Source of the DNA: Desulfomonile tiedjei DSM 6799
Lineage (GTDB): Bacteria; Desulfobacterota; Desulfomonilia; Desulfomonilales; Desulfomonilaceae
Reading direction: 5' to 3'
DNA length: 64,000 bases
Assembly: GCF_000266945.1 (NCBI RefSeq)
Contig: NC_018025.1
Span: 682,001-746,000 of the forward strand
Each line of letters opens with the position of its first letter. Position 1 is the first letter of the stretch. A program made the position numbers and the translations under genes. Of this stretch, positions 876-60,278 are shown one piece after another. The notes beneath the pieces are model-generated. The model saw only the letters and a list, made by a program, of their open reading frames with translations, was not told where the DNA came from and did not search any database.

Positions 876-951
876 TCCCCGATAGCTCAATCGGCAGAGC
901 GGGTGGCTGTTAACCACTAGGTTGTAGGTTCGAGTCCTACTCGGGGAGCCA
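876..951 (+). tRNA. tRNA-Asn (anticodon GTT), CCA encoded
   Basis: A 76-nt cloverleaf: acceptor stem TCCCCGA/TCGGGGA with discriminator G and encoded CCA, D arm around AGCTCAATCGGCAGAGC, anticodon GTT at 909-911 in the loop CTGTTAA, and a T arm with the GGTTCGAGTCC signature. It is the integration target of the adjacent islands: its 3' half from the anticodon loop on recurs at 30914 and 35770. Confidence 0.97.
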
Positions 952-972
952 AAAAAGATAAATCATCCCGCA
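907..972 (+). repeat. attL: tRNA 3'-half direct repeat, copy 1
   Basis: The segment from the anticodon loop through the tRNA end plus 21 bp is identical to 30914..30979 (66 bp) and matches 35770..35826 over 57 bp. This is the usual core for tyrosine integrases that use tRNA 3' ends. The integrase stop codon lies inside the repeat. Confidence 0.9.
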
Positions 973-2069
973 ACGTTGGACACAACGGTTAGCGGGATTT
1001 TCTTTCTCAGGATAGTCAGTGCGGGACTTTTGCGGGACTGATCCACGCAGACCGCATTGGCAGCCGCCATCAAGCTCCTCAACTCAGGCATTGAATAATG
1101 GGTGGTGACCCGCCCCGATTTGTGCCCGAGAAGATCCTGCCTATCCTCGAAACTGACCCCCGCCGCCCGAAGCCTTCGCCCAAAAGTGTGCCGAAGATCA
1201 TGAATTCGCACGTGCTCTAAATTCACTTTCTTCCGTGCAGCTTTCCAGGCTGTGGTATTCATGGTTCGTAGGGGGTGCCCGTCATACGTGAACACCCATT
1301 CTTGATGTCGGGGGCGCACCAGCTCGATTATTTCTTCGGCTACCTTGTTCAAAATCACGACCTTATCCTGGCGATTCTTTATTCGCTGCCCAGGAATTAT
1401 GAAAACACTGGTATTCAGTTCTGGGACCTCGACCTCATACTCCCACCGCAGACCGCACACTTCCGAATCTCTGCATCCGGTATTTACTGCGAATGAGCAC
1501 ATGACCCGAAGATGTTCAGGCAGGATAGCGAACAGCTTTTGCTGTTCATCCCACGACAACGGATACGGGTCTCTTGCATCCGATCTCGGGAGCAATCTTA
1601 TTTTGGGAGCCGATCTCAGCCAAGTGAGCCCATTTTCGTCAAGCCATTCACCCGCAGCCAGATTCAGAATGTGCCTCACGACTTCCAAGGGCATATTTAT
1701 CGTCCGATGCTTTAAGCCTTTGCGCTTGGCGTCTTCGATATAGGGTCTCAAAGTCCCCATATGAACGTTTTCAATGGGGAGCCCCCCTATATATGGTTCA
1801 ATCCGTTTGAGGTTCCAGGCGTCTTTTTCCAAAGTGGCTTTCTCGGTTTCATTCATGTACTTAATCATTGCCTGTCGAAAACTTCTGGGGGGCCGCACTC
1901 CATAAACCTCGGCTTGCCGGATTTGCTCCCGTCTCCGGGCTAGATATTTTTCCGCTTCTTCGAGGTCGCCCGTTCCAGTGCTTTCGCAAATTCTTCTTCC
2001 TCTGATAACCTTGTCGATGTGCCATATCCCTTTCCTGTTGACGAGACCAGGGATCTTTTTGCGTCCCAT
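963..2069 (-). CDS. int: Tyrosine-family site-specific integrase, 368 aa, island 1
   Basis: Phage-type integrase that would insert and excise island 1 at the tRNA-Asn. The catalytic set is visible: Arg near residue 200 (NTGCRDSEVCGLRW), HDLRHTFGRRL (HxxR) near 290, LLGHKSG His near 315 and the nucleophile Tyr near 325 in TTHYS. The N-terminal 60 residues form the arm-binding part. The length is complete. The 5' end overlaps the excisionase-like gene by 130 bp in another frame, an arrangement repeated in island 3, so it is probably functional coupling. The stop lies inside the att repeat, so the gene 3' end and attL are the same DNA. Confidence 0.95.
   Translation of the reverse strand: MGRKKIPGLVNRKGIWHIDKVIRGRRICESTGTGDLEEAEKYLARRREQIRQAEVYGVRPPRSFRQAMIKYMNETEKATLEKDAWNLKRIEPYIGGLPIENVHMGTLRPYIEDAKRKGLKHRTINMPLEVVRHILNLAAGEWLDENGLTWLRSAPKIRLLPRSDARDPYPLSWDEQQKLFAILPEHLRVMCSFAVNTGCRDSEVCGLRWEYEVEVPELNTSVFIIPGQRIKNRQDKVVILNKVAEEIIELVRPRHQEWVFTYDGHPLRTMNTTAWKAARKKVNLEHVRIHDLRHTFGRRLRAAGVSFEDRQDLLGHKSGRVTTHYSMPELRSLMAAANAVCVDQSRKSPALTILRKKIPLTVVSNVAG
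965..1007 (+). terminator. Hairpin with T-tract after tRNA-Asn
   Basis: ATCCCGC at 965-971 pairs with GCGGGAT at 992-998, followed by TTTTCTTTCTC. Equivalent hairpins follow the other two att copies with changed loops but a conserved ATCCCGC/GCGGGAT stem. It could terminate tRNA transcription and also overlaps the integrase 3' codons. Confidence 0.5.
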
Positions 2070-10100: not shown

Positions 10101-10130
10101 GGCCAGTCATTCAATCAGCAATGACTGACC
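10101..10130. promoter_or_regulatory. Inverted repeat over the XRE gene start
   Basis: GGCCAGTCATT (10101-10111) and AATGACTGACC (10120-10130) match at 10 of 11 positions, and the right arm covers the ATG at 10121. Binding here, or an RNA hairpin, would block initiation. Together with the palindrome at 10071 it suggests autoregulation. Confidence 0.5.
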
Positions 10131-10402
10131 AGATCCAAAATATGCCGAACCGGTCTGAGATTGCTAAAATCTTTGGTGAAGTCCTTCAGGAACTCCGCCG
10201 CAAGCGTGGACTGTCTCAAGAGGAATTCGGCTTCGAGTGCGAACTGCACCGAACCTACATCAGCCTCCTAGAACGTGGGAAAAGGATTCCTTCCTTGACG
10301 ACTATCATCCAACTTGCCATAGTCCTGAAAGTCTCTCCGTCGGAAATCGTTCGGCAGGTCGAGGCTCGGCTCGGTTGGCCAGCCACGAATATCTTCGACT
10401 GA
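10121..10402 (+). CDS. XRE-family transcriptional regulator, 93 aa
   Basis: Almost the whole protein is one Cro/cI helix-turn-helix: LQELRRKRGLSQEEFGF, then HRTYISLLERGKRIPSLTTI and QLAIVLKVSPSEIV. Single-domain members commonly act as repressors of mobile elements or restriction-modification systems. A truncated relative remains at 13743-13907. The gene is convergent with the secreted-protein gene ending at 10426. Confidence 0.85.
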   Translation: MTDQIQNMPNRSEIAKIFGEVLQELRRKRGLSQEEFGFECELHRTYISLLERGKRIPSLTTIIQLAIVLKVSPSEIVRQVEARLGWPATNIFD

Positions 10403-10425: not shown

Positions 10426-10833
10426 CTATTTCGCTGGCTTGACATCCTTTATCTTTAATGAAACGGCTGGACTAACGGGTGGTATTGTACTTGATCTTGC
10501 CATCGTAGCGATGACGAATTCGAATGTTTCTTTATCTCCCGATGAAAGATATTTTATTTTGCCTACAGGACCGCTCTTGCTCCATTCCCAGCAGTCTAAC
10601 CTGCAACTTTCAACACATTCCGTGCATTCTGCGGTTATGATGATATCTTTTGCATCGCTACTTCCAACGTTTTTTATAGTTCCTTTGGCCGCTAACAAAT
10701 ACAATGATCCACCATGCCTCATGGGTTCTCGCTCCATCGTGATATCATCTTTTACTATGACGACTCTCGGCTCACACCAAGCTATGGTGGCCTGTAGTAT
10801 CAGAATTAGCCCAATCGATATTATTTTTGTCAT
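10426..10833 (-). CDS. Small secreted protein, predicted ECF-sigma target
   Basis: Start chosen at the ATG at 10833 behind GGAGGAGAG. The signal peptide MTKIISIGLILILQATIAWC is followed by about 115 residues with a conserved-looking cysteine cluster (AECTECVESCRLDC, near residues 70-83), likely two disulfides or a metal site, within a beta-rich domain (KGTIKNVGSSDAKDIII resembles FxLYD-like beta-sandwiches). A copy of the island's ECF-type promoter lies about 95 bp upstream. It acts in the periplasm or on the surface; function unknown. Confidence 0.75.
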   Translation of the reverse strand: MTKIISIGLILILQATIAWCEPRVVIVKDDITMEREPMRHGGSLYLLAAKGTIKNVGSSDAKDIIITAECTECVESCRLDCWEWSKSGPVGKIKYLSSGDKETFEFVIATMARSSTIPPVSPAVSLKIKDVKPAK

Positions 10834-10925: not shown

Positions 10926-10954
10926 TATTCGATGCGGGAAGAAAAAACCTGACA
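10926..10954 (-). promoter_or_regulatory. ECF-sigma promoter, copy 1
   Basis: Read on the minus strand: TGTCAGGTTTTT (10954-10943), 10 bp, TCGAATA (10932-10926). Both boxes are identical to the two copies between the sigma gene and the 12613 operon. Transcription would start near 10918 and read into the secreted-protein gene. Confidence 0.7.
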
Positions 10955-11028
10955 GGAGAAAATCATTTTTTCTTGATTCCGTCTTCAAGTTATTGCATGG
11001 TGCTTAGACATAGGGCAAATAGATTCTC

Positions 11029-11634
11029 TTAACGTCCCCTGAACCACGAAAGAAGTCTTGCTAATAGCCCCTTCGGCCGCTCTGGAGGCTCAGTCTGCTC
11101 GGGTGAGATAGGCTCATCTGCCGCTAAAGGCGTTTGCGGCTCCTCTGGTATTTCATCTGGCGGCTCAACGTCTGCTGCTATGGGAAGATCCAATTTGTCA
11201 CGGCGTCCCCCCTGTGCCGCTAACGGAATCTGGAAATCAAAATGTTGGCTTTCCCGCCCTAGTTTCACCAGTTTGTCATGCACCGCATCCCAAATCTCGG
11301 GAGGCATACCGTCAGCGGGTTGAAGGCACTTGAGGGACTGGACATCTTCCCGGCAGGATAGGCATTCTTTAAGGTGATCTGAAATTTTGCCCGCAGGATC
11401 GTTTCCAGTGGCCACGAAATCCGCAATCTCCGAAGGCTCGGGGCAAAACAGGTCTTTGTCCGTCCTGAGGGTGTGCATGATAACTTTCAGCCCATCAAGC
11501 TCTTTGCGAGCCTGTTCATTGGTCCGCAATAGCTCTGTTACCTTCTGTCCTTCCTCTTGCGGGAGAGATCCTTCAATATACTGGAGAAGAAGGACTCGGA
11601 GTTCTACCAATGAGCGATCAGATGAACTCGTCAT
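11029..11634 (-). CDS. Cytosolic zinc-binding anti-sigma factor, 201 aa
   Basis: Two N-terminal helical regions; the second carries HLKECLSC, the HxxxCxxC zinc-anti-sigma signature, near residues 87-94. The C-terminal half is acidic/proline-rich and ends in a basic amphipathic tail (LLARLLSWFRGR), with no true membrane span. The ATG overlaps the sigma-factor stop by 4 bp, so the two are translated together. It is expected to hold the upstream-encoded ECF sigma factor inactive until a signal, possibly redox or zinc-dependent, releases it. Confidence 0.85.
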   Translation of the reverse strand: MTSSSDRSLVELRVLLLQYIEGSLPQEEGQKVTELLRTNEQARKELDGLKVIMHTLRTDKDLFCPEPSEIADFVATGNDPAGKISDHLKECLSCREDVQSLKCLQPADGMPPEIWDAVHDKLVKLGRESQHFDFQIPLAAQGGRRDKLDLPIAADVEPPDEIPEEPQTPLAADEPISPEQTEPPERPKGLLARLLSWFRGR

Positions 11635-12266
11635 GCCCTCTGCCTCCTGCTTTCAATCTGCACGTAAGCGCCTCTCAGGTGTGCTATGCACCTGAGCACG
11701 TGCACATTGACCGAGTTCACCTTCTTCCCGAGGCGGTCCGCCATTTCTTCATAAGTGAGATCAGAGAAGAATCGAAGCTTGAGCAATTCTTGGCAGCCTT
11801 CGGATATGTGACTGAGGGCTGTTCTCACCATTTGTCCGAATTCAGCTTTCGCTACCTGTTCGTCTGGAGGATCGTCCCCGCATCGAAGAGCGACATGACC
11901 CGGATTGGTGTTGTCATGATGCTCGACAGGTTCATTGGTTCCGGTACGGCTCATCGTGGAAGTGCCTCGCCAGCAGTCTATACACGTCCGCTTGGCAACC
12001 ATGGACACATATGTTCTGAGCGAGCTTGAATGTCCGTCGTATTCTGCCAGGGCTTCCACAAGACTTTTGTACACTTCCTGGATCAAGTCTTCTCGGCCGT
12101 CGTCTGTGGAAGAGCGAGAATGTCTCCTTACGACCGCTTCAATAAGTAAATGGTACTGACCATGAAATTCTGTCCATGCCGCCTCTGATCCTGAAAGGCA
12201 GCTATCCACCAGTTCCATATCATCACGACGATCCCCGTTCCGCATTCCGATATTTTCGCCTCTCAT
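11631..12266 (-). CDS. ECF-subfamily RNA polymerase sigma factor
   Basis: Region 2 is visible as FHGQYHLLIEAVVRR and EDLIQEVYKSLVEAL, with SSLRTYVSMVAKRTCIDCWR around residues 85-104. Region 4 is LSHISEGCQELLKLRFFSDLTYEEMA and KKVNSVNVHVLRC. The longest start is annotated; ATGs at 12245 and 12218 are alternatives and no strong Shine-Dalgarno decides. Translationally coupled to the anti-sigma gene. A promoter of the shared TGTCAGG/TCGAATA type lies at 12489-12461, about 200 bp upstream, implying self-activation. ECF genes inside an integrative island are uncommon. Confidence 0.92.
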   Translation of the reverse strand: MRGENIGMRNGDRRDDMELVDSCLSGSEAAWTEFHGQYHLLIEAVVRRHSRSSTDDGREDLIQEVYKSLVEALAEYDGHSSSLRTYVSMVAKRTCIDCWRGTSTMSRTGTNEPVEHHDNTNPGHVALRCGDDPPDEQVAKAEFGQMVRTALSHISEGCQELLKLRFFSDLTYEEMADRLGKKVNSVNVHVLRCIAHLRGAYVQIESRRQRA

Positions 12267-12460
12267 TGAAATGCCACATCAAACCAAAGTCAGGAATATA
12301 GCGCATTTCTGCTCATCTCGTCCAGAAGTATTTTGGATTATCGGCTCTTAAATTCCGGCACCGAACCGAACAATTAATGCACGGTCAAAGATTTGTTATT
12401 GCATTGTGAAAGTTTCGCTAACAGCATCTACGGGTCTCTTCCTTCTTGTTCCACCTGCGG

Positions 12461-12489
12461 TATTCGAGTCTCCGATGAAAAACCTGACA
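12461..12489 (-). promoter_or_regulatory. ECF-sigma promoter, copy 2 (sigma operon)
   Basis: On the minus strand: TGTCAGGTTTTT (12489-12478), 10 bp, TCGAATA (12467-12461). It points at the sigma/anti-sigma operon. Together with copy 3 it forms a nested inverted repeat with exactly symmetric 10/20/10-bp spacers. Confidence 0.75.
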
Positions 12490-12509
12490 GAAAAAATTGG
12501 TTCGAAGGT

Positions 12510-12538
12510 TGTCAGGTTTTTGGAGGCCGGATCGAATA
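12510..12538 (+). promoter_or_regulatory. ECF-sigma promoter, copy 3 (small secreted operon)
   Basis: On the plus strand: TGTCAGGTTTTT (12510-12521), 10 bp, TCGAATA (12532-12538). Its -35 box is only 20 bp from that of the divergent copy 2. Predicted start near 12548, about 65 nt before the ATG at 12613. Confidence 0.75.
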
Positions 12539-12612: not shown

Positions 12613-12882
12613 ATGAGGAAAATGTGCGGTCTGTTTTTTGTTTTGCTATTTCCCCTGCAGGTCGGAGCAGGATTTTCTGACGGAAGGGGACAATCATCTG
12701 CAGACGATCCCATTCGCATGGCCCAACATCAGCACGCCAGAGGGACGTGTTGCAAGTGTGAGCGATACGAACAAGGAAATTGGATAGTCGTTGGCACGGT
12801 CTGTGCGGAATTCGGAAGCTCTATCGAAGAGCGTTGCCGTCGAGCAGGTGGGACCCAATGCACGACCATCTGGACAAAATAG
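12613..12882 (+). CDS. Small secreted cysteine-rich protein, 89 aa
   Basis: ATG at 12613 lies 9 nt after GGAGG; earlier in-frame starts have poorer signals. A signal peptide (MRKMCGLFFVLLFPLQVGAG) is followed by a 65-residue mature part with six cysteines (CCKC, later VCAEF, RCRRAG and QCTT), which suggests a disulfide-rich periplasmic or extracellular domain. First gene behind ECF promoter copy 3. No family recognised. Confidence 0.7.
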   Translation: MRKMCGLFFVLLFPLQVGAGFSDGRGQSSADDPIRMAQHQHARGTCCKCERYEQGNWIVVGTVCAEFGSSIEERCRRAGGTQCTTIWTK

Positions 12883-12918: not shown

Positions 12919-13062
12919 ATGGCAGTCCGAATCAATCTTCTCCCCAATTGGAGGGCTGAGCTTCGCAAGCTTCAGATGGCCAAAGAACTGTGCCTGTATG
13001 CGGTCATCTTTCTGGGAATGACATTGGGATTCGTAATCATGCTCATATTGCGAGTTCTTTGA
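12919..13062 (+). CDS. 47-aa membrane peptide resembling the PilN N-terminus
   Basis: RBS AAAGGAG, 7 nt before ATG. The sequence begins MAVRINLLPNWRAELRK and continues into one membrane segment (VIFLGMTLGFVIMLIL). The INLLP box followed by a single transmembrane helix is the hallmark of PilN, where the box binds PilM in type IV pilus assembly; the periplasmic domain is entirely missing here. It may bind a host PilM-like protein or be a stand-alone micro-protein. Second gene of the ECF-controlled operon, 36 bp after the first. Confidence 0.6.
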   Translation: MAVRINLLPNWRAELRKLQMAKELCLYAVIFLGMTLGFVIMLILRVL

Positions 13063-13149
13063 ACAAGAAATATCCGCTCAACTGAAACGCTTTCAAAGCA
13101 CTGTTTGCAGTAGCAACAGCACATTCAAAAAGATTTAAAGGAGTAAGTT

Positions 13150-13521
13150 ATGAACATCATGAAAAATCAGCAGCAGGAAACACTTGAGGAAAAACAGTTG
13201 CGTCGCAAAATGGCCGACCTTCGCAAAGCTCGGGCCAGAGTCGCCAAAAGCGAAAAGGAACTGAAAACAAGGTACAAAACCATTTTAGCTCTCGTAGGGG
13301 AGAAGGCCGCCGAGCTGGACGATGCTGTGCAGACACTTGAAAAACTATTGGAAAACCTGAGCAAGCATCGCTCCAATGAAGTGGATGGATCTCAGGTTGT
13401 TGTTGATGTTGACAAAGAAGTTCGGGATTTCAACGACTTCACAGTAAAATTGGGAGAAGTATTCCCGGACCTTTCGCAATTCTTGCCTAATAGTTCATCG
13501 ACATCCACCCAGAGGCTGTGA
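13150..13521 (+). CDS. Coiled-coil protein, 123 aa
   Basis: ATG follows AAAGGAG. Residues 5-75 form a long charged coiled coil (heptads in KQLRRKMADLRKARARVAKS, then DDAVQTLEKLLENLS). The C-terminus is acidic then Ser/Thr-rich. Cytosolic. Third gene of the likely ECF operon, 87 bp after the PilN-like peptide. No recognised family. Confidence 0.65.
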   Translation: MNIMKNQQQETLEEKQLRRKMADLRKARARVAKSEKELKTRYKTILALVGEKAAELDDAVQTLEKLLENLSKHRSNEVDGSQVVVDVDKEVRDFNDFTVKLGEVFPDLSQFLPNSSSTSTQRL

Positions 13522-13742
13522 AGTGAGCGAGAGGGGATTATTCAAGGACTTGTGGCCTATGATACGAGCCTTTGGGCTGCTGACAGAGAATTGGGAAAGG
13601 ACCGACAGGCGGAATCGATCTGGTCAAGTCTAAAGTTCCGAAAGTCCCTGCACGGTTCGGCTAACAATTTCAAAACCAGAACCATGAGAATGGTGCAGTC
13701 CTTCGTCGGATCAATGGGTCGGGCGAAAAATCTGAGGTTCTC

Positions 13743-13907
13743 ATGAAAGCAGCGGGGGACTACATGACTTTGGATTTGGATACGAAAATTGCACCGAACG
13801 TAAATAAGCTTGTTGGAAAGAGGAAAAAAGATTCCTTCGTTAACCCCACCATCATTCAATTGGCCACTGCCCTGCGAATTCGGCCTTCCAAAATAATCAC
13901 GGGTTGA
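13743..13907 (+). pseudogene. Remnant of an XRE-family regulator
   Basis: A 54-codon frame whose second half (NPTIIQLATALRIRPSKIITG) aligns with the C-terminal part of the XRE regulator at 10121 (TTIIQLAIVLKVSPSEIV). The DNA-recognition helices upstream are lost or scrambled. The surrounding 13522-14080 holds no other supported gene. Confidence 0.5.
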
Positions 13908-14080
13908 GGTCCAATTAAGAGACTGGGCAGGTGAGAAAGCCACTGACTGATGCGGCTCAACCGCAGTTTAGCGAAAAAGCTTTTATCATTTTATAGATCT
14001 CGTTTATGTAGTCTTGAATGCTGATCTGGTACAACATGATTCTTCGACGATATGGTGTGAACCAAATCCATGAGCCCATA

Positions 14081-14293
14081 TCACTGCTTTCTAAATTGAT
14101 ATATATTTTTCACCTCCCTATTCAAGAAACTGCCTTTAGACGGCGCATACATAATTTGGTCAAATATAGAGCGTGGAACGTCGCTGTAAACATAATATCC
14201 TCCCGACAAGAATTGGACATGCAGTTCCTGTGCATCCTCGTCATATCCGATAGCTTCGATATTGGACGAATCAACATAGATCATGTCAGGCAT
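14081..14293 (-). CDS. KTSC-domain protein, 70 aa, third gene of the SIR2-HerA operon
   Basis: The whole protein is a KTSC domain: VDSSNIEAIGYDEDAQELHV, FLSGGYYVYSDVP and SKGSFLNREVKNIYQF match the family pattern, which ends in a KGSFLN box. KTSC occurs alone and at the end of some lysyl-tRNA synthetases and is thought to bind nucleic acid. Its ATG overlaps the HerA stop by 8 bp, so it is translated with the SIR2-HerA pair, which is normally described as two genes. Confidence 0.85.
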   Translation of the reverse strand: MPDMIYVDSSNIEAIGYDEDAQELHVQFLSGGYYVYSDVPRSIFDQIMYAPSKGSFLNREVKNIYQFRKQ

Positions 14294-16076
14294 TAGTTTT
14301 CTCCTTATCAGTCATATCAGTTTGATTTCTCCAGTTGTTAAGAGCGGACTCATATTGCGAACCATCAGGACGATCCTGTCGCCACGCCCACGGCACATTA
14401 GGGTCGTCGCCAAGAGGCCTATGGCGAGCCTTGAAGAATTGAATTCGAGATGGAATCGGCATCGCTTCGCCCAAAACAATGCCTTCGCCCGTCCGCAGGG
14501 CTGGTAACATTCCAGAAAGGGCACCTAAGTCGTCCGGCATGGCCGACTCAACTTTCGAGCGATCAGCAGAATTCGTGAGCCTCAAAGCAATCATGGTTCC
14601 GCATTGACTCAGAATTGTGCTGTCAATCTCGCCGGGCCGTTGCGTTACAACACAAAGCCCGACTCCATATTTTCGTCCTTCTTTGGCGATCCTGGAAATT
14701 GTTCTGTGGGCAGCCGAGTCACCCCCTTCGGGTAAGAATAAATGCGCCTCTTCCAGAACGATCAATAGTGGTTGGTTCCGTCCGCTGATCGGTAGATCTA
14801 ATGCCCAATACAGCAGATCGTAAACAATCCTGATCAGGGTTCCCACGATTGTAGATAGCACATCGGGAGGTAAACCAGAAACATCAAGGACGGTTAGTGG
14901 TTTTTCGTGTCCGACCCACGATTGTACGAGATGATGCAAATCGTTGCCAATCTCACCTTTCAGGTTTGGTGCAAGACCTTCACCAAGTTGAAACAGGAAC
15001 GAATATCGAGAGTCCTGAAGACGACTCCGCAGTAATTCTAGCTGCTTGCCTATATTCCTGGGTCTTGGATGTGCAAAAGGGGCCTGGTTTCCAGGATTAG
15101 GTGCTGGATATTGGTTCGGCAGTAGGTCTTCCGCATTTCCTTCACTAATTTTCTGACTTGGTTTTGTCTTTTCTTTATCCTGAAAAGTCTGCCTCTCAAA
15201 ATCGTCTAACTCAAACCAGAGCCGCTTTAGACTGAACGGAATCGGGGAGTCAGCCGTTATTGCCGCATCGAGTGGAGTATTCTTAAGGTGAGCGGCTGCA
15301 GCTTTCTTTAGTGCAGTAATGTCGTCTCTGACGGCCGTTTCAGAACTGGGCTGCATTTGTCCTAAAGCAATTGCTTGAAGTTCGTCAAAAGGGAGCGCCC
15401 AGAAAGGAACATACAGCGGCAACTCTCCCTCGCCTGTATCTGGTCTGATCTTGAACACACGGCCATATTGCCCGACGGCGGAAGCATATTCTCCATGCGG
15501 ATCAATGACAAGGAGGCGTGCGGCTGGAAAACCTTGAGTTGCAATCGCCTCAAGCAGCACAGCAATGAAATTGGATTTTCCTGAGCCAGTGGACCCAACT
15601 ACAGCTGAGTGCTTGGTAACCATTCCGCCCAAGTTCAAGTCTCCCGAAATTCCTGATGCAGCCGCAATATGGCCAACAGTGATCACCCCATCTTCATTGG
15701 TCGATCCATATATTACCCGCATGTCTTGAGGCGAAACAAGATGGACTTCATCTTCAATGGTCGGGTACTGGCTGACTCCTCTGTCGAAAACTCCTCCTAT
15801 GGACTCACCAAATAATGTTGCGGATAGCCAGCGATGTCCTGGAGAACTGTTTGGTTCCTCAGTCCGAGGAGCTGCTGCGGCACCAACCAAAGTACACACT
15901 AGATACAGTTGATTGTAACCAAGAGGAATGCGTAGAAATGCCCCAACCTGGCCTATCCGATACGAATGGCCATCGATCATAATGAACGTTGGCATATTGT
16001 CCCGAAGACGAATTGTGACAACTCCACCTTTGACCGATTCAACGTAACCAATCAGTGTGGGCCATTCACGGGTCAT
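14286..16076 (-). CDS. herA: HerA-type ATPase of a SIR2-HerA anti-phage system, 596 aa
   Basis: Start set at 16076, where ATGA overlaps the SIR2 stop and GGGAGG lies upstream. N-terminal HAS-barrel-like region, then Walker A GSTGSGKS near residue 165, RLLVIDPHGEYASA, Walker B LLIVLEEAHLF, and the AKEGRKYGVGLCVVTQRP segment with the sensor and arginine-finger residues; this is the FtsK/HerA hexameric translocase core. A charged, proline-rich insertion separates the two halves of the ATPase. In the known defence system HerA assembles with SIR2 and licenses NAD+ depletion or DNA cutting during phage infection. Confidence 0.92.
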   Translation of the reverse strand: MTREWPTLIGYVESVKGGVVTIRLRDNMPTFIMIDGHSYRIGQVGAFLRIPLGYNQLYLVCTLVGAAAAPRTEEPNSSPGHRWLSATLFGESIGGVFDRGVSQYPTIEDEVHLVSPQDMRVIYGSTNEDGVITVGHIAAASGISGDLNLGGMVTKHSAVVGSTGSGKSNFIAVLLEAIATQGFPAARLLVIDPHGEYASAVGQYGRVFKIRPDTGEGELPLYVPFWALPFDELQAIALGQMQPSSETAVRDDITALKKAAAAHLKNTPLDAAITADSPIPFSLKRLWFELDDFERQTFQDKEKTKPSQKISEGNAEDLLPNQYPAPNPGNQAPFAHPRPRNIGKQLELLRSRLQDSRYSFLFQLGEGLAPNLKGEIGNDLHHLVQSWVGHEKPLTVLDVSGLPPDVLSTIVGTLIRIVYDLLYWALDLPISGRNQPLLIVLEEAHLFLPEGGDSAAHRTISRIAKEGRKYGVGLCVVTQRPGEIDSTILSQCGTMIALRLTNSADRSKVESAMPDDLGALSGMLPALRTGEGIVLGEAMPIPSRIQFFKARHRPLGDDPNVPWAWRQDRPDGSQYESALNNWRNQTDMTDKEKTNA

Positions 16077-17320
16077 CCGAATGCCCCTCCCATCGCTTTT
16101 AGGAAACGACAAAACCAGTTGAAGTCTCCCAGCCGCATTTTTCCAGTCAAATCATCAGTTCTATTCGCAGGAGAGCCTCCATCTTCTGGCATCGCATTGC
16201 TGTCAAATCCCATATCCATGAAAGCGCAAGTCTTCCTGTCCACGGGTTGTGTAAGCTGCCAGTGCCCCCAATTTGCAGAAATCACTGCCGCATTCGGTCC
16301 AACCACACTCAAATTTGGTCTCCGCAAGGCTTCCCGAACCAAATCGTCCTTCTCTTTCAATTCTTGAAATTGCAGTGCTATGATGTTCGCTGTAGGCCTG
16401 TTATCTAAGGCACCATATAATACAGCATTAATGTGCTCATCCCCAAAGCTGTATCCGCACGTGATCAAGAGCGCATGCTCTGCATTCAATATTCGAGAAA
16501 GCCTATCTATGTATGCGATATAAGGTTGCTTGCGAGACTCGTCATATTTGCGGTGCGAGGGTAAAATCAATTCCCCTGTGTCGGCGGGAGAACTCCTGAT
16601 GATGCGCCCCTTTCCAGTCCCATTCTCAAGTAGCCAGTTAACGGAACCATGGATCTTCCATAATCTAACCCATTTCGATTTCGGTAAGAGTTCCTCGTCT
16701 TCGAGGCACTCTGAATAGAAGAACGGGCGGTGCGTTCCCACAAAGCCATCAAATACAGGCACCCTCGCCGCTTCAAAGGCCCTCTCGAACAAGATGTCAT
16801 AGTTGGTCGTGAAGATTTCAACAGGAGTAGTCCGATTGATACTTTTAACCCAAGAAGCAAAACTGTCATGAGGCATATCAGTCGGGATCATATCTTCACT
16901 AGGATTCACCGTCTTGGCTATCGCAGCACAAACAGTTCTTTCAATGCTAATGAGACTTGCTTTGTCGAGACCTACCAAAGTCTCGCCATCGCCAATCGCA
17001 TCGATTTTCATTCGAACTTTGGAGAGTAAGTCTTCAACATTTGCAGGGCACGAATCCTGTTCGCATTGGCAGACCAGCTTGCCCCAAGCATCAGTTTGGT
17101 TTTCGCCTATACAGCACACTGCCCGGTAACAGATTTCTGTAAGGCCTTCAATTCCCGGTATAAGAGGCTGATGTGTCGGCTTTTGTCCTGGCAGAGCGGT
17201 TGGTGCTATATTCACTGAACTTGACGTTCCAGCCCCGAAGAGAAAAGAAAGAGTCCGGTCGTGCGTAGCCAGATGATCTCTCAAGTTCTCGATCACTTGT
17301 CTCGGATCATGGGTACTCAT
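16073..17320 (-). CDS. SIR2-domain effector of a SIR2-HerA anti-phage system, 415 aa
   Basis: Start at the ATG at 17320 behind AGGAGG, nine codons inside the longest frame. The SIR2_2-type Rossmann fold shows FLFGAGTSSS near residue 29 (NAD-binding GAGxS), IFTTNYDILFERAF (TxNYD) in the middle, and WKIHGSVNW carrying the catalytic His. A C-terminal SIR2 half (HALLITCGYSFGDEHINAVLY) follows. Family members paired with HerA are NADases that abort infection. First gene of a tight three-gene operon with HerA and KTSC. Confidence 0.92.
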   Translation of the reverse strand: MSTHDPRQVIENLRDHLATHDRTLSFLFGAGTSSSVNIAPTALPGQKPTHQPLIPGIEGLTEICYRAVCCIGENQTDAWGKLVCQCEQDSCPANVEDLLSKVRMKIDAIGDGETLVGLDKASLISIERTVCAAIAKTVNPSEDMIPTDMPHDSFASWVKSINRTTPVEIFTTNYDILFERAFEAARVPVFDGFVGTHRPFFYSECLEDEELLPKSKWVRLWKIHGSVNWLLENGTGKGRIIRSSPADTGELILPSHRKYDESRKQPYIAYIDRLSRILNAEHALLITCGYSFGDEHINAVLYGALDNRPTANIIALQFQELKEKDDLVREALRRPNLSVVGPNAAVISANWGHWQLTQPVDRKTCAFMDMGFDSNAMPEDGGSPANRTDDLTGKMRLGDFNWFCRFLKAMGGAFG

Positions 17321-17961
17321 GCCAACGCCTCCTAATACTCGCTTCATTATCGGCGCAATTTCGATTCCCTCGGTTTGGGAATACGCAAGTGCAAATCGTC
17401 CCAGGTCAGGTCAAAATGAGCAGGACCGATAATTTTGCCGCCCGAAAATCTTGAATGTCCAAACAGCCGCAACTCTTACTCATCTCGGAGTCTCTGTAAT
17501 CATTGTGTTTCCGAGCAATTCGAATAACACGGGATGAGTCTGTGGGCAACAGGAAAATCACTTTGGCGATCTTTTCTCCCGAGCACTTTCGATTTCAATC
17601 TGGCTGATCACCGCTCTTCTTTTTCCATAGACGACAGATTTCATGCCCAAATCTTAACAATACGCACAATGCTGAGGCTGAGAGAGGGGCACGACGTTCT
17701 CTCGTTGTGCTCTTTCGGCCACAATCGGAAGATATATCGGCATATTCGCTTCTCATATCGAAAGCACGGCGACAAATAGGGCCTAATTGCGGCAAGATCC
17801 TGCGAGCCCGGCAAGTCTGCTTCGGAGAAAGAATTCTTTAAGTAAACTACCCTAAACGCCCGATGGAAAATAGACAACGGAGGCGGCAACTTGCTCAAAA
17901 TGAAGCTGCTGTCCCAAAAATTATCTATTAGCATTCATGACTACACCATCAGAATATCCGA
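17321..17961. other. Gap of about 640 bp, no supported gene
   Basis: Presumably holds the promoter of the SIR2-HerA-KTSC operon near its right edge at 17321-17400. Frames here are short and unlike proteins, and no clear repeat is seen. Confidence 0.35.
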
Positions 17962-27069: not shown

Positions 27070-27439
27070 GGCTGAACAATGGCACAATACTAGCTCCGGA
27101 GTCAACCGCCTTTTCAGAAAAACGTATGTGGTGAATGGAGAGAGACCTTCGATCCGAGTAATACGATCACGGGCTTGGAAAATGATTAAAAAGAGCCGCT
27201 CTGAAACCGGGCAGCACAGAACATTGCGCTTGACAGAGTGGGCCTTTGGTGGCAGTTTAGCTGTATTCGCAGGTTCAGCTTGATCGAATCCTGTTGAAAC
27301 TTTGAACTTAGCGAATGCGGTGAAAACGAACCAAGTGGTGAATCAGCAAAATTGAGAGTTGTATCTCAGATCGGCTCCCCACTAAGTTCTTTCGCCTCTT
27401 AGTGCTTTGGCGAGAAGCCATTTTGAATTGGGGGAATGG

Positions 27440-28645
27440 ATGTCGAGGGCAGCCGATTATACCATTCAGGGTTTTCTATATCAGTTCAACAAAACCCTTC
27501 TAGAAATCCTCTGTTCGACCGATGACTGTCCGATCACGATTGAGGGCATTATTGAAGATATAGACATTCAGACTGCCTCGGGCATTAAGGCCATTCAATG
27601 TAAATATCACGAGGCACAGCAGAATTTCACACTCAGCTTGGTCTATAAACCTATCCTGCAGATGATGCACCATTTTCACAACAATGGACATATGGATGTC
27701 CAATACGTCTTATATGTCTATTGTCCGAATGAAGAGCCGCACAAATATTCGCTTAAGAAACAAGAAATAGCCGCTGTTCTTAAATCAAAGAATCAGGATC
27801 TTGAAAAATATACAAAGCAGCTGGCAGGCGCTGTGGACACTGATAAATTTCTAAAGCACTTTTCAGTGGAATTCGGGCAATCATTGGATAATCTAACTAA
27901 AGACGTGTACGCAGCTCTCAAGAATGGTGGTATTCCCGAAATTGACATCGAAACTCTAGCATATCCCAATGCTATCCACGCAATGGCTACGATTAGCATC
28001 AAACACGACGAGCAACATCGCAGGATAACCAAATCTCAGCTGTTAGATGATCTCCAGAAGATCAGGAAAACAGCCATTTCCCGTTGGACTCTAGCTCTGA
28101 AAAGTCGCAAGAAAATAATGGCTGCCAGACAAAAACAGCTGAAAGCTAACTTGGACAAAAATGTCCGCACACGGTATTTCCTTGTTGAACCTTCTTCGAT
28201 AGAGGATTTTGATTCCAATATTATTCTGTTCATCACAAGTTTTCTGGATAAATATCATTTCAAGCAAACTCATCTAAAGACGCCTCTTTTCTGTCTGGAT
28301 TGCGATCCCACCAAGTTTGATGACATCAGATTTAGGCTGCATCAAAAGGGAATAAACGTGGCGGATGGATTTGTGGGTTCTCATTTTGATAAGGGGAGGT
28401 TCTTTCGGGAGCCGATGTCACGGAAAGTGGCAGCAGGCCAAATTGAGAAAGAGTTCAGAATGAGGCTGCTGAGATACGATTCCAACGAAGAAATATTAAA
28501 TCAATACAAATGCGATGATCTTTTCATTATTGGGGACTGCCAATATGATGGCCTCGACCTCACTGATGTAGATGTGGAGCATGTTGAGGCCCACAGTTTT
28601 GTTGAAATCAAGTACCTATTAGGAGTCAGCAATGTCTACGAATAA
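27440..28645 (+). CDS. DUF4297/Cap4-like nuclease of a second HerA defence system
   Basis: N-terminal AADYTIQGFLYQFNKTLLEI, IEGIIEDIDI and IKAIQCKYHE correspond to the QGFxYQ..D..(I/V)QxK layout of DUF4297/Cap4-type PD-(D/E)XK nucleases. The following VQYVLYVYCPNEE strand fits too. The C-terminal half is helical/beta with no known domain. ATG at 27440 behind GGGGGA. It overlaps the downstream HerA gene by 14 bp. Nuclease plus HerA pairs are known anti-phage systems in which the ATPase ring activates DNA cleavage. Confidence 0.8.
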   Translation: MSRAADYTIQGFLYQFNKTLLEILCSTDDCPITIEGIIEDIDIQTASGIKAIQCKYHEAQQNFTLSLVYKPILQMMHHFHNNGHMDVQYVLYVYCPNEEPHKYSLKKQEIAAVLKSKNQDLEKYTKQLAGAVDTDKFLKHFSVEFGQSLDNLTKDVYAALKNGGIPEIDIETLAYPNAIHAMATISIKHDEQHRRITKSQLLDDLQKIRKTAISRWTLALKSRKKIMAARQKQLKANLDKNVRTRYFLVEPSSIEDFDSNIILFITSFLDKYHFKQTHLKTPLFCLDCDPTKFDDIRFRLHQKGINVADGFVGSHFDKGRFFREPMSRKVAAGQIEKEFRMRLLRYDSNEEILNQYKCDDLFIIGDCQYDGLDLTDVDVEHVEAHSFVEIKYLLGVSNVYE

Positions 28646-30404
28646 AATCGGTCAAGTATTATCATGCGCCCCCAATTCGATCATCATAGAAATCGCTGAT
28701 CTAGGAACATTCGAGAAGCACAAATCTGATCTGCAGATTGGACGCTATCTAAAGATTGCACAGGGAAACAATGATTATACCATAGCTGCGATTAAGACAC
28801 TTAAAGGCGTCAATGATTCCGACAGGAACGGTAACCCAGAGTGGCAATTCACGATTGAATGCCAAGCCGTTGGCACTCTCGTCGGTAATGAGATTTTCGA
28901 GCGAGGGAGTATCCTTCTTCCCGTACCAACTGAACCAGTTTATATGGCTGACAAAATAACTCTGGACAAACTCTTTACTCTTGATGATCAATTTAATTTC
29001 CCATTTGGCCTCTTGTCTCTAAACAAGGAGATTTCACTGAAAATCGATGGAAATCGCTTTTTCAGCAAGCACATAGCGGTAGTCGGTTCTACAGGTTCGG
29101 GCAAATCCTGCACAGTCGCAAAAATACTGCATGATGTCGTAGGCATTGCAGGCTGCAAGAACCTTCTTTGCGAGCAGAATAATTCACACATAATTATATT
29201 CGATATTCACGACGAATATAGAAGTGCTTTTCAGTTGGACCAAGATCAATCCTTCACATTGAATGTCCTGGATGTTGATTCTCTAAAGCTGCCGTACTGG
29301 TTGATGAATTCTGAGGAATTAGAAAGCATGTTCATTGAAAGTAATGAGGCAAACTCACATAATCAGGTCTCGCAATTCAAGAACGCTGTTATACTAAACA
29401 AAGAAAAACATAATCCTCATGTGAAAGAAATGACTTACGACACGCCCGTTTTCTTTTCGATCCGAGAGGTCCGTCAATATATAGAAAACATGAACCGGGA
29501 AATAATCGGCAGGTTACCCAACGAAAACTTGCCTAAGCTAACCGACGGCCAACTCGTAGCTGATCGAAAGGATTTCTATTTTGACAAAATTCATGATTTC
29601 GTGCCGGCCTCGACCGCCAAAGAAACCAAAGCTACAAACGGCCCCTTTAATGGTGAATTCAATCGGTTTGTTTCCAGGTTAGAGACTAGTCTATCGGACA
29701 AGCGGCTCAAGTTCTTGTTAGATCCATTGAAACCAACCGGAGAACAGTATAGTACCAGTGATTTTGAGGAGATTATGCAGCAGTTCCTGGGCTATTTGAA
29801 CAAATCTAATGTGACAATAGTTGATCTGAGTGGCATCCCATTTGAGGTTCTGAGCATAACAGTAAGTCTGGTCTCTCGGTTGATTTTCGATTTCTGCTTC
29901 CATTATTCTAAATTGCGCCGTGATCAGGATCTACTGAACGATATTCCTGTGATGATAGTGTGCGAAGAGGCACATAATTATGTGCCACAAAACGATGCCG
30001 TCGCTTACCGGTCCTCACGAAAATCCCTCGAACGTATCGCAAAAGAAGGCAGGAAATATGGTCTTAGTCTAATGGTGGTCAGTCAGCGTCCTTCCGAAGT
30101 GTCGGAGACAATCTTTGCTCAGTGCAACAATTTTGTGGCCCTGCGTTTGACGAATGATAGCGATCAGGGATACGTTCGCCGCCTCTTCCCAGATAACACA
30201 TCAGCAATTACCGACATTTTACCAAATTTGGCTCCTGGGGAATGCATCGTGGTAGGAGACGCTGTTTTGCTTCCCGCTATCATACAGATGGGACTCCCAA
30301 ATCCACAACCTCAATCACAAAGCGTGAATTTCCATGAAGAGTGGCAATCACCTTGGCGGGACGTGACATTCAACGATGTGATCACCAGATGGAGAAAGGA
30401 ATAG
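28632..30404 (+). CDS. herA: HerA-type ATPase of the second defence system, 590 aa
   Basis: HAS-barrel N-terminus (GQVLSCAPNSIIIEIADLG), Walker A GSTGSGKSC near residue 155, IIIFDIHDEYRSAF, Walker B VMIVCEEAHNYVP and AKEGRKYGLSLMVVSQRPSE near 460-485. Same domain plan as the HerA at 14286 but clearly divergent, so it is not a recent duplicate. Translationally coupled to the nuclease gene. Expected to form a hexameric ring and partner the nuclease. Confidence 0.92.
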   Translation: MSTNKIGQVLSCAPNSIIIEIADLGTFEKHKSDLQIGRYLKIAQGNNDYTIAAIKTLKGVNDSDRNGNPEWQFTIECQAVGTLVGNEIFERGSILLPVPTEPVYMADKITLDKLFTLDDQFNFPFGLLSLNKEISLKIDGNRFFSKHIAVVGSTGSGKSCTVAKILHDVVGIAGCKNLLCEQNNSHIIIFDIHDEYRSAFQLDQDQSFTLNVLDVDSLKLPYWLMNSEELESMFIESNEANSHNQVSQFKNAVILNKEKHNPHVKEMTYDTPVFFSIREVRQYIENMNREIIGRLPNENLPKLTDGQLVADRKDFYFDKIHDFVPASTAKETKATNGPFNGEFNRFVSRLETSLSDKRLKFLLDPLKPTGEQYSTSDFEEIMQQFLGYLNKSNVTIVDLSGIPFEVLSITVSLVSRLIFDFCFHYSKLRRDQDLLNDIPVMIVCEEAHNYVPQNDAVAYRSSRKSLERIAKEGRKYGLSLMVVSQRPSEVSETIFAQCNNFVALRLTNDSDQGYVRRLFPDNTSAITDILPNLAPGECIVVGDAVLLPAIIQMGLPNPQPQSQSVNFHEEWQSPWRDVTFNDVITRWRKE

Positions 30405-30913: not shown

Positions 30914-30979
30914 CTGTTAACCACTAGGTTGTAGGTTCGAGTCCTACTCGGGGAGCCAAAAAAGATAAATCATCCCGCA
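30914..30979 (+). repeat. att repeat, copy 2 (island 1/island 2 junction)
   Basis: 66 bp identical to 907-972, containing the tRNA-Asn 3' half (anticodon loop to CCA) but no 5' half, so it is not a gene. It ends island 1 and starts island 2. Confidence 0.92.
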
Positions 30980-35769: not shown

Positions 35770-35826
35770 CTGTTAACCACTAGGTTGTAGGTTCGAGTCC
35801 TACTCGGGGAGCCAAAAAAGATAAAT
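35770..35826 (+). repeat. att repeat, copy 3 (island 2/island 3 junction)
   Basis: 57 bp identical to 907-963, again only the tRNA 3' half; divergence begins where copies 1 and 2 read AATCAT. Followed by an integrase gene in the same position and orientation as at 963. Confidence 0.92.
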
Positions 35827-36935
35827 TATCCCGCTCGGTTACCAACAAGCTGCGGCGGGATTTTTCGTCTCAGAATCGTCACTGCACCAGATTTGCACCA
35901 ATTCTCTCCGCAAACCCGCTCCGAAGCTTGTATCAAATTGATCAATTCGGGTGCCGAATAATGCGTCGTGATCCTCCCCGACTTATGGCCGAGGAGGTCC
36001 TGCCGATCCTCAGATGAAACACCCGCTGATCGTAACCTGCGACCATAGGTGTGCTTGAGATCGTGGATTCTCACAAACGGCAAGCCCACTTCCTCCCTTG
36101 CCGCCTTCCAAGCGGTATTGTACATGCTCTTTACGGGAGAGCGTTTGTAGGTGAAGCCCCACACAGGATGATCACCGCGCATCCGGTGAATCACTGCCCT
36201 TGCCACGCGATTCAGTACCACAAGACGATCTTCTTTATTCTTGACCCTCTCCTTCGGTATGATGAACACGCTGGTTTCCAATTCCGGAATCTCCACTTCA
36301 TCGTCCCACCGCAATCCACACACCTCTTTATTCCGGAGCCCCGTGTTGATGGCGAAGAGGCACATCATCCTGAGATGCTCGGGAAGAGCGGCAAACAGCC
36401 TCCTTTGCTCATCCCAGGACAAAGGATAAGGCTCCCTGGCATCGTCGCGCGGTAGCAAACGGATCTTGGGGGCAGACTGGAGCCAAGTAAGACCGTGCTC
36501 ATCCAACCACTCCCCAACGGCCAAATTCAAGATTCGTCTCACCACTTCCATGGGCATATTGATGGTCCGGTTCTTCCATCCTGCTTCTGCCCGTGCTCGA
36601 TATAGGGCCTCAAAGTCCCCATGTGAACATTCTCCAGATAAAGATCCCCAATGAACGGGTCTATTCTCTCAATGCACCAGGCATCTTTATCGAGCGATTT
36701 CTTTTGAACTTTCGTTCAAATACCTGGCTGCTGCCTCCCGGAAGGTGCGCTTTGGCCGAATGCCGTAAACCTCGGAATTTCTAATCTCTTCAGTCCGGTG
36801 CGTTAAGTATCTTTCCTCTTCAGCGAGTATGCTCGTTCCAGTGCTTTCTTGAATTCTTTTTCCACAGATTGTTTTTTTTTGATGTGCCAGATTTCACCAC
36901 GCCTGACGAGCCCTGGTGAGACTTTCTGTCCCATA
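35826..36935 (-). pseudogene. int: Frameshifted tyrosine integrase, island 3
   Basis: Homologous along its length to the integrase at 963. The start MGQKVSPGLVRRGEIWHIKK at 36935 is followed by a frameshift in a run of nine A. A second lies near 36720 (before SLDKDAW) and a third near 36580 (after RPYIE). The C-terminal 243 codons from 36557 remain open and keep the Arg, HDLKHTYGRRL, LLGHKSG and HYS motifs, so decay looks recent. Without all three corrections it cannot make a full enzyme. Confidence 0.85.
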
Positions 36936-37155
36936 ACGGCTTTCCTCCCATAGCCTTCCCGGGCCGCCCGTTGCTCTCCTTATGTTGATCGACCCACGCG
37001 TCCAAATCAAGTCGATCGAACGCGATGCCTTGTTTACCTATTGGAATTTCAATTAGATGTGGTCTAACTTCTGTATTAAAACGATTCGGGTCCATCCCGA
37101 GGTAGTGGGCTGCATCCCGCAGCCTGATCAGTCGAGGTAAAATTTGTCCGCTCAT
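36820..37155 (-). CDS. AlpA/excisionase-like protein of island 3, 111 aa
   Basis: Close homologue of the protein at 1940 (RLRDAAHYLGMDPNRFNTEV, IPIGKQGIAFDRLDLDAW), with the same large overlap on the integrase 5' end. The helix-turn-helix part is intact while the tail differs. It may still act on the related att sites in trans. Confidence 0.75.
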   Translation of the reverse strand: MSGQILPRLIRLRDAAHYLGMDPNRFNTEVRPHLIEIPIGKQGIAFDRLDLDAWVDQHKESNGRPGKAMGGKPLWDRKSHQGSSGVVKSGTSKKNNLWKKNSRKHWNEHTR

Positions 37156-60137: not shown

Positions 60138-60278
60138 CTGATACCATTTCGCAATTATGCATATAAGATAGCGCAGGCTGAGTTGTTCTGAGCGGAGTGA
60201 TTAGACGGCTTTGCGTCGTCCGGAGCGAAGGATACCTCCAGCCTGCCAGATTATAAAAGAAAAGCGAATCGGTATGAG
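60138..60278. mobile_element. MITE-like repeat, copy B (141 bp)
   Basis: Ends CTGATACCATTTCGC and GCGAATCGGTATGAG; inverted relative to 41868-42006 and about 80% identical. Located between the IS110 upstream region and the molybdenum hydroxylase operon stop. Confidence 0.75.

Follow-up and report, generated by a model that had tools for sequence, protein, structure and literature searches.

Does a mobile island in this genome control its own genes through a sigma factor of its own, and are the promoters that such a factor would read private to the island? The question is raised by a two-box sequence, TGTCAGGTTTTT-N10-TCGAATA, which occurs in three exact copies (19 specified bases) in the 64-kb window, that is, the whole stretch of DNA that was analysed:

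10926..10954, minus strand: predicted promoter site 1, exact match with 23 bases from TGTC to CGAAT, before a secreted-protein gene
12461..12489, minus strand: predicted promoter site 2, exact match, before the sigma and anti-sigma genes (putative autoregulation)
12510..12538, plus strand: predicted promoter site 3, exact match, divergent from site 2, before the genes for a Cys-rich protein, a membrane peptide, and a coiled-coil protein

With up to 3 mismatches allowed, no fourth match to the 19-base motif was found in the window (0.04 expected in shuffles; 0/100 shuffles reached 3). In the island's own 6.5-Mb genome (contigs of 6,500,104 and 26,923 bases), only the three island sites matched at up to 2 mismatches, and 3 mismatches added two further places, the same number as with the reversed control. 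The initial annotation had reported three exact copies at these positions and had proposed a whole-genome search for more; the window and genome searches confirmed the former, and the latter gave no extra copy within 2 mismatches. Among 395 genomes of the phylum, the motif with up to one mismatch was found in the own genome and at one other place only (L054), a match that we took as chance, there being no sigma gene in its 3 kb (open reading frame list, by eye). Compared pairwise, the three sites share 2 to 4 of 10 spacer bases and 9 to 14 of 40 flanking bases per side. These differences rule out that the sites are copies of one promoter segment, so they are not recent duplicates, and they argue for the earlier view that selection, rather than duplication, has probably kept the boxes identical. 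Each site points toward a start codon: site 1 toward that of the secreted protein (10833, ~90 nt away), site 2 toward that of the sigma (12266, ~195 nt), and site 3 toward that of the Cys-rich protein (12613, ~75 nt), in agreement with the earlier proposal that they would serve the sigma operon and two other transcripts.

The sites lie in an island delimited by the following features:

876..951, plus strand: tRNA-Asn, integration site of the island (tRNA search)
907..963, plus strand: left attachment repeat, made up of the tRNA 3' end (three identical copies of 57 bases)
963..2069, minus strand: tyrosine integrase (Pfam PF00589, 1.9e-21; phrog_1)
30914..30970, plus strand: copy of the attachment repeat (57 identical bases), right end of the island that carries the sigma unit

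The identical 57-base repeats at the tRNA and at 30914 place the sigma unit inside an element of ~30 kb, followed by a remnant (31.0-35.8 kb), with a third copy of the repeat at 35770, and then by a second element with a related integrase. An excisionase-like gene is found near the tyrosine integrase, past the tRNA-Asn, and PHROGs matches in the element include an exonuclease and a DnaD-like loader. With an integrase by the tRNA and direct repeats of the tRNA 3' end, the region has the structure of a tRNA-integrated island, and the location that the initial annotation had assigned to the sites, on a mobile and integrative island, appears correct. The second integrase/excisionase-like pair (35826-37155) has 66% DNA identity to the first, indicating tandem elements at the same tRNA-Asn, and its integrase ORF is the shorter one (243 versus 368 aa). 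Genes predicted by PADLOC to act in defence are present in the island, namely a HerA/SIR2 pair, a DUF4297/HerA pair, and a type II methylase whose companion nuclease matched weakly; the two HerA-type pairs lie at 14286-17347 and 27407-30404 of the window. None of the defence genes is preceded by any of the three sites.

Between sites 1 and 2 lie two genes:

11631..12266, minus strand: ECF sigma factor, 211 aa (TIGR02937, 9.6e-26; Pfam Sigma70_r2 and r4_2 above cut-off)
11029..11634, minus strand: anti-sigma, 201 aa, apparently soluble, homologous to proteins adjoining related sigmas

The earlier gene labels were thus broadly right. The sigma consists of regions 2 and 4 only, with the region 4 match at 145-198 (Pfam), its ORF is overlapped by that of the anti-sigma, and the adjacent product carries H-x3-C-x2-C; these are the marks of an ECF (group 4) sigma with a class I anti-sigma. 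We consider it probable, at roughly 85%, that the three sites are promoters of this adjacent ECF sigma and that together they form an autoregulated unit held by the soluble anti-sigma.

Relatives of the sigma (E ≤ 0.001) were detected in all 18 genomes of the order; at the stricter E ≤ 1e-25, four of the 395 phylum genomes had a match, and these four belong to the host's family. The six closest-compared relatives (L007, L023, L024, L027, L030, and L042) are 32-37% identical to the island sigma. In a tree of 21 sequences, from which L046 was left out as it is cut by a contig end, the island sigma pairs with L023 (95/95), whose neighbourhood looks chromosomal by eye, and falls inside a clade of 13 rows, clade A (89/87). 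The own genome holds, besides the island pair, a chromosomal paralogous sigma/anti-sigma pair (L007), whose sigma gene is at 1825642. No close orthologue of the sigma was found among plasmids, phages, viral contigs, and named genome contigs, where all matches were at most 30% identical. These comparisons indicate that the island unit has its origin in a family of sigma/anti-sigma pairs found within the host's bacterial family. The leader RNA of the sigma gene was not more stable than its shuffles, 178 of 200 of which folded at least as well.

The kinship bears on whether the motif is private, as the initial annotation had it. A reduced core, TGTCAGRTTN{12,15}CGAAT, gave 18 matches in 8 of the 18 genomes of the order, and the reversed control gave 0 in 18; the pattern was partly learned from loci that were later counted, and the reversed control and the sister clades serve as its checks. 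Three of the matches are the island sites, four lie before Cys-rich genes at sigma loci, and five are on two contigs of one genome (G009), roughly 7-21 kb from a sigma/anti-sigma pair or an orphan anti-sigma, three of these being in one duplicated segment and hence not independent. The remaining six have no known link to a sigma locus: five are on contigs without a sigma match, and one is on a further G009 contig whose start is a 90% identical copy of the start of one of the two G009 contigs just mentioned. At four loci, one in the own genome (L007, site at 1825089) and one each in G011, G012:C47, and G013 (L024, L027, and L030 being the locus handles), an exact TGTCAG[GA]TT-N13-CGAAT stands before a gene for a small secreted Cys-rich protein, which adjoins the sigma gene on its upstream side; at L025 a weak core with 3 mismatches precedes such a gene. 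A secreted family of 71-76 aa (CC..C..C...GG..C..C) directly precedes sigma and anti-sigma in five genomes (L007, L024, L025, L027, and L030).

When the available upstream DNA of each locus, up to 1.5 kb, was searched, a core with at most one mismatch was found upstream of the sigma in 7 of 13 clade A members (6 of 12 relatives when the island is set aside), 0 of 6 in sister clade B, and 0 of 2 in clade C. The best sites at the clade A loci that missed had 2 (L028 and L029), 3 (L025 and L041), or 4 mismatches (L040 and L026, the last with 168 bases of upstream DNA only). At the five exact-match loci and at L042, the observed value was reached by 0 of 40 shuffles. The one-mismatch site of L023 was reached by 1 of 40 shuffles, and a 2-mismatch site of L044 in a sister clade scores alike. 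L042 has a divergent layout like that of the island, with a site on each strand: 2 mismatches in the one toward the sigma, and 1 in the one toward a gene whose product has a signal-like beginning. In four of the six relatives with a site, the Cys-rich gene comes in between: the site stands in front of that gene, 500-600 bases upstream from the sigma, rather than immediately before the sigma. A weight-matrix scan trained on the relatives gave 21.0, 17.1, and 14.8 for the island sites and 15.8 for position 60244 of the window, and ten random sequences as long as the window had top scores between 11.6 and 20.0. Downstream bases missing from the island had gone into the matrix, and four spacings were allowed; the scan lends no support.

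Judged from sequence, the core motif is family-wide and not private to the island. Chromosomal sigma loci in related genera have it, and in the own genome an extra core site lies at 1825089, before the Cys-rich gene beside the paralogous pair. The earlier word "private" is thus not supported as it stood; what remains of it is that the exact 19-base version and the 23-base spacing were found in the island only. The occurrence of the same core at four related-sigma loci supports the reading of the island sites as ECF promoters, which the initial annotation had proposed.

The shared core also leads to another explanation, in which the sites serve mainly, or also, the chromosomal paralogous sigma or another host sigma, with the island unit under the control of the host system. 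The paralog does have the same core site before its own Cys-rich gene, and the region 4 residues are similar across clade A (by eye), but a separate sigma gene adjoins the sites in the island, and the spacing differs. From TGTC to CGAAT there are 23 bases, together with an invariant TCGAATA, in three of three island sites, which share one sigma and are not independent, versus 22 bases in all nine non-island exact-core sites beside, or on contigs with, related sigma/anti-sigma genes (about seven of the nine independent; spacings of 21 to 24 searched). A need for a rigid spacer is reported for ECF sigmas in a passage of PMC6411747. We therefore regard service to a host sigma as unlikely.

The island anti-sigma differs from its relatives in length. 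It has neither the membrane helix nor the periplasmic domain that are present in the 10 relatives measured, and its hydropathy maximum is 0.65 versus 2.02-2.77 in those 10. Its open frame encodes 207 aa; those of the 21 anti-sigma relatives, ten of which were measured for the helix, all encode 333 aa or more. The island sigma thus belongs to clade A by its place in the tree but is not accompanied by a membrane-anchored anti-sigma. Twenty of the 21 relatives adjoin a sigma match, in one case (G014) a sigma fragment at a contig end, and the remaining one (G009:C41) is an orphan; this orphan, L083:1024-2169, is on a contig that has core sites and no sigma match. The second zinc finger, C-x22-H-x3-C-x2-C, is kept, with C64, H87, C91, and C94 invariant in 11 of 11 aligned sequences. 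The first H-x3-C-x2-C is missing in 2 of the 11, the island protein and that of L023, and the latter is otherwise full length; the loss of the first finger is therefore probably older than the truncation. Pfam zf-HC2 remained below cut-off on the island protein, which is called an anti-sigma on the strength of its zinc-finger motif and its homology to proteins beside related sigmas. RsrA and ChrR are soluble zinc-binding anti-sigmas, short and with H-x3-C-x2-C. The island protein is likewise short and carries the same motif, its upstream zinc ligand presumably being Cys64. The C-terminus, RPKGLLARLLSWFRGR, could be an amphipathic helix and so make loose membrane contact. According to a passage of PMC8103513, soluble anti-sigmas arose by truncation of membrane-anchored ones, and an excerpt of PMC7406223 gives a zinc-binding motif in about 72% of soluble class I anti-sigmas; as far as these sources go, both statements fit a soluble, truncated island protein.

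It may be asked whether the unit is instead a decaying relic, with a dead anti-sigma and leftover promoters. The missing finger, helix, and sensor domain would suit such decay, and no close orthologue was found with which selection could be tested; against it, each of the three sites retains every one of the 19 box bases, the sigma and anti-sigma frames are open and overlapping, the four presumed ligands of the second finger are kept, and the absence of the first finger is common to the otherwise full-length L023. Decay is accordingly quite improbable. A role of the motif as the operator of some DNA-binding regulator, such as the XRE-type protein encoded by the helix-turn-helix gene that adjoins the region (10121-10402), is very improbable, since the motif is not palindromic, consists of two boxes at near-fixed spacing, points at island genes, and tracks this sigma clade across genera.

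The genes behind sites 1 and 3 are as follows:

10426..10833, minus strand: small secreted protein, Cys-containing (ORF; N-terminal signal-like segment; no family match)
12613..12882, plus strand: small secreted Cys-rich protein, 89 aa (ORF; signal-like segment)
12919..13062, plus strand: 47-aa peptide with one predicted membrane helix (hydropathy 2.75; no family match)
13150..13521, plus strand: 123-aa protein, likely a coiled coil by eye (ORF; weak family matches below cut-off)

None of the four had a family match above cut-off, and "secreted" here denotes an N-terminal hydrophobic segment recognized by eye and by hydropathy scan. For the product of 10426..10833, no relative was found in the 17 other genomes of the order, and the structure model, with beta strands, was of low confidence (mean pLDDT 45.7) and hence too poor for a structure search. 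The protein of 12613..12882 resembles the Cys-rich proteins of the relatives only faintly and not significantly (4 bits, E 0.0045 against a single target; HHalign probability 0.7%), and we claim no homology. Viral contigs held no relatives of either secreted protein. The 47-aa peptide had been called PilN-like, for which the Pfam search gave no family support. The group had also been called surface proteins; the signal-like segments and one membrane segment are there, and a surface location is plausible from them. An anti-phage or exclusion role for the exported proteins is a possibility, given that the island carries predicted defence genes.

Most likely, then, an ECF sigma carried by the island controls its own operon and, in addition, two transcripts that encode small proteins destined for export or for the membrane. 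The sigma would bind TGTCAGG as the -35 box and TCGAATA as the -10 box at the three sites. From site 2, the sigma/anti-sigma operon would be transcribed in a positive feedback; a passage of PMC8103513 puts the share of autoregulated ECF regulons at about 55% of those predicted. Site 3 would give a transcript for the Cys-rich secreted protein, the single-helix membrane peptide, and the coiled-coil protein, and site 1 one for a single secreted protein. The N-terminal zinc-finger domain of the anti-sigma would keep the sigma inactive. As the anti-sigma lacks membrane helix and periplasmic sensor, release of the sigma would have to follow an intracellular event, such as zinc or thiol chemistry, proteolysis, or a partner protein, or else involve a partner that replaces the lost part.

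A further idea, possible but doubtful, is that capture by the island insulated the sigma unit: the envelope sensor was shed and one base was added, so that the sigma and its paralog would read different spacings of the same core. The insulation case is weakened by ECF41 promoters, which tolerate a spacer of 16 +/- 1 (passage of PMC3426412), and strengthened by M. tuberculosis sigma-H, which loses activity off its best spacing (passage of PMC6411747). If insulation were true, the host's envelope-sensing copy would be joined by an island-run envelope programme under intracellular control, triggered for example by excision of the island, by replication, or by an attacking phage, and the membrane peptide of 12919-13062 would possibly replace the lost anchor.

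Several known systems resemble the island unit in part. The initial annotation had likened the sites to promoters of the TGTCACA/CGTC type; as the consulted part of PMC3426412 describes ECF41, the -35 box begins with TGTCA and the spacing is similar, but the remainder differs, the promoter being TGTCACA-n16-CGTC, and ECF41 has a fused C-terminal domain and no anti-sigma. The -10 TCGAATA, the -35 TGTCAGG, the length of 211 aa, and the presence of an anti-sigma rule out that the island sigma is an ECF41. CnrYXH of pMOL28 is, in the part of PMC9045368 consulted, likewise an ECF sigma/anti-sigma system on a mobile element with promoters for its operon and targets, but the CnrYX complex is membrane-bound and the system makes the expression of an efflux system depend on nickel. 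According to passages of PMC10028731, the type III-E CRISPR defence locus likewise encodes an ECF sigma, CASP-sigma, with three sites inside that locus and an inhibitor of its own, but the inhibitor is Csx30, a substrate of the TPR-CHAT protease Csx29; a family search of the unit's proteins gave nothing pointing to a Csx30/Csx29-type protein, Csx30 itself being outside the search. An island with its own sigma had been deemed unusual, and CnrH on pMOL28 (PMC9045368) and CASP-sigma (PMC10028731) are precedents, as far as the consulted parts go; this particular island sigma unit was not described among the titles and abstracts of the matches listed in a literature search that included the string TGTCAGGTT. 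On G009 contigs with related sigma/anti-sigma genes, we observed by eye two large TPR proteins with CHAT-like C-termini (L082:9860-12739 and 13040-16147) and a caspase-like protein (L080:12934-14370), which sit beside big ankyrin and Sel1-type proteins; this context recalls the protease/sigma pairing of type III-E CRISPR.

The nearest comparison is with the six family relatives. Like the island, they have an adjacent anti-sigma and the core, exact in four of the six and with one mismatch in two; unlike it, they have a membrane helix and a periplasmic domain in the anti-sigma, a 22-base spacing, and, in four cases, a site that stands in front of a Cys-rich gene, itself upstream of the sigma. 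The unit is most readily understood as a variant, carried by an island, of a regulator type already known; what makes it interesting is how it compares with its chromosomal parent family, rather than any privacy of the motif. TGTCAG[GA]TT-N13/14-CGAAT offers a pattern for finding regulon genes in the host's bacterial family. Within one genome, a chromosomal ECF system and its island relative have the same core, spacings one base apart, and a sensor kept in the one versus lost in the other, a direct comparison that makes two questions testable: how a duplicated sigma comes to be insulated from the system that it arose from, and what advantage a sigma of its own brings to a mobile element.
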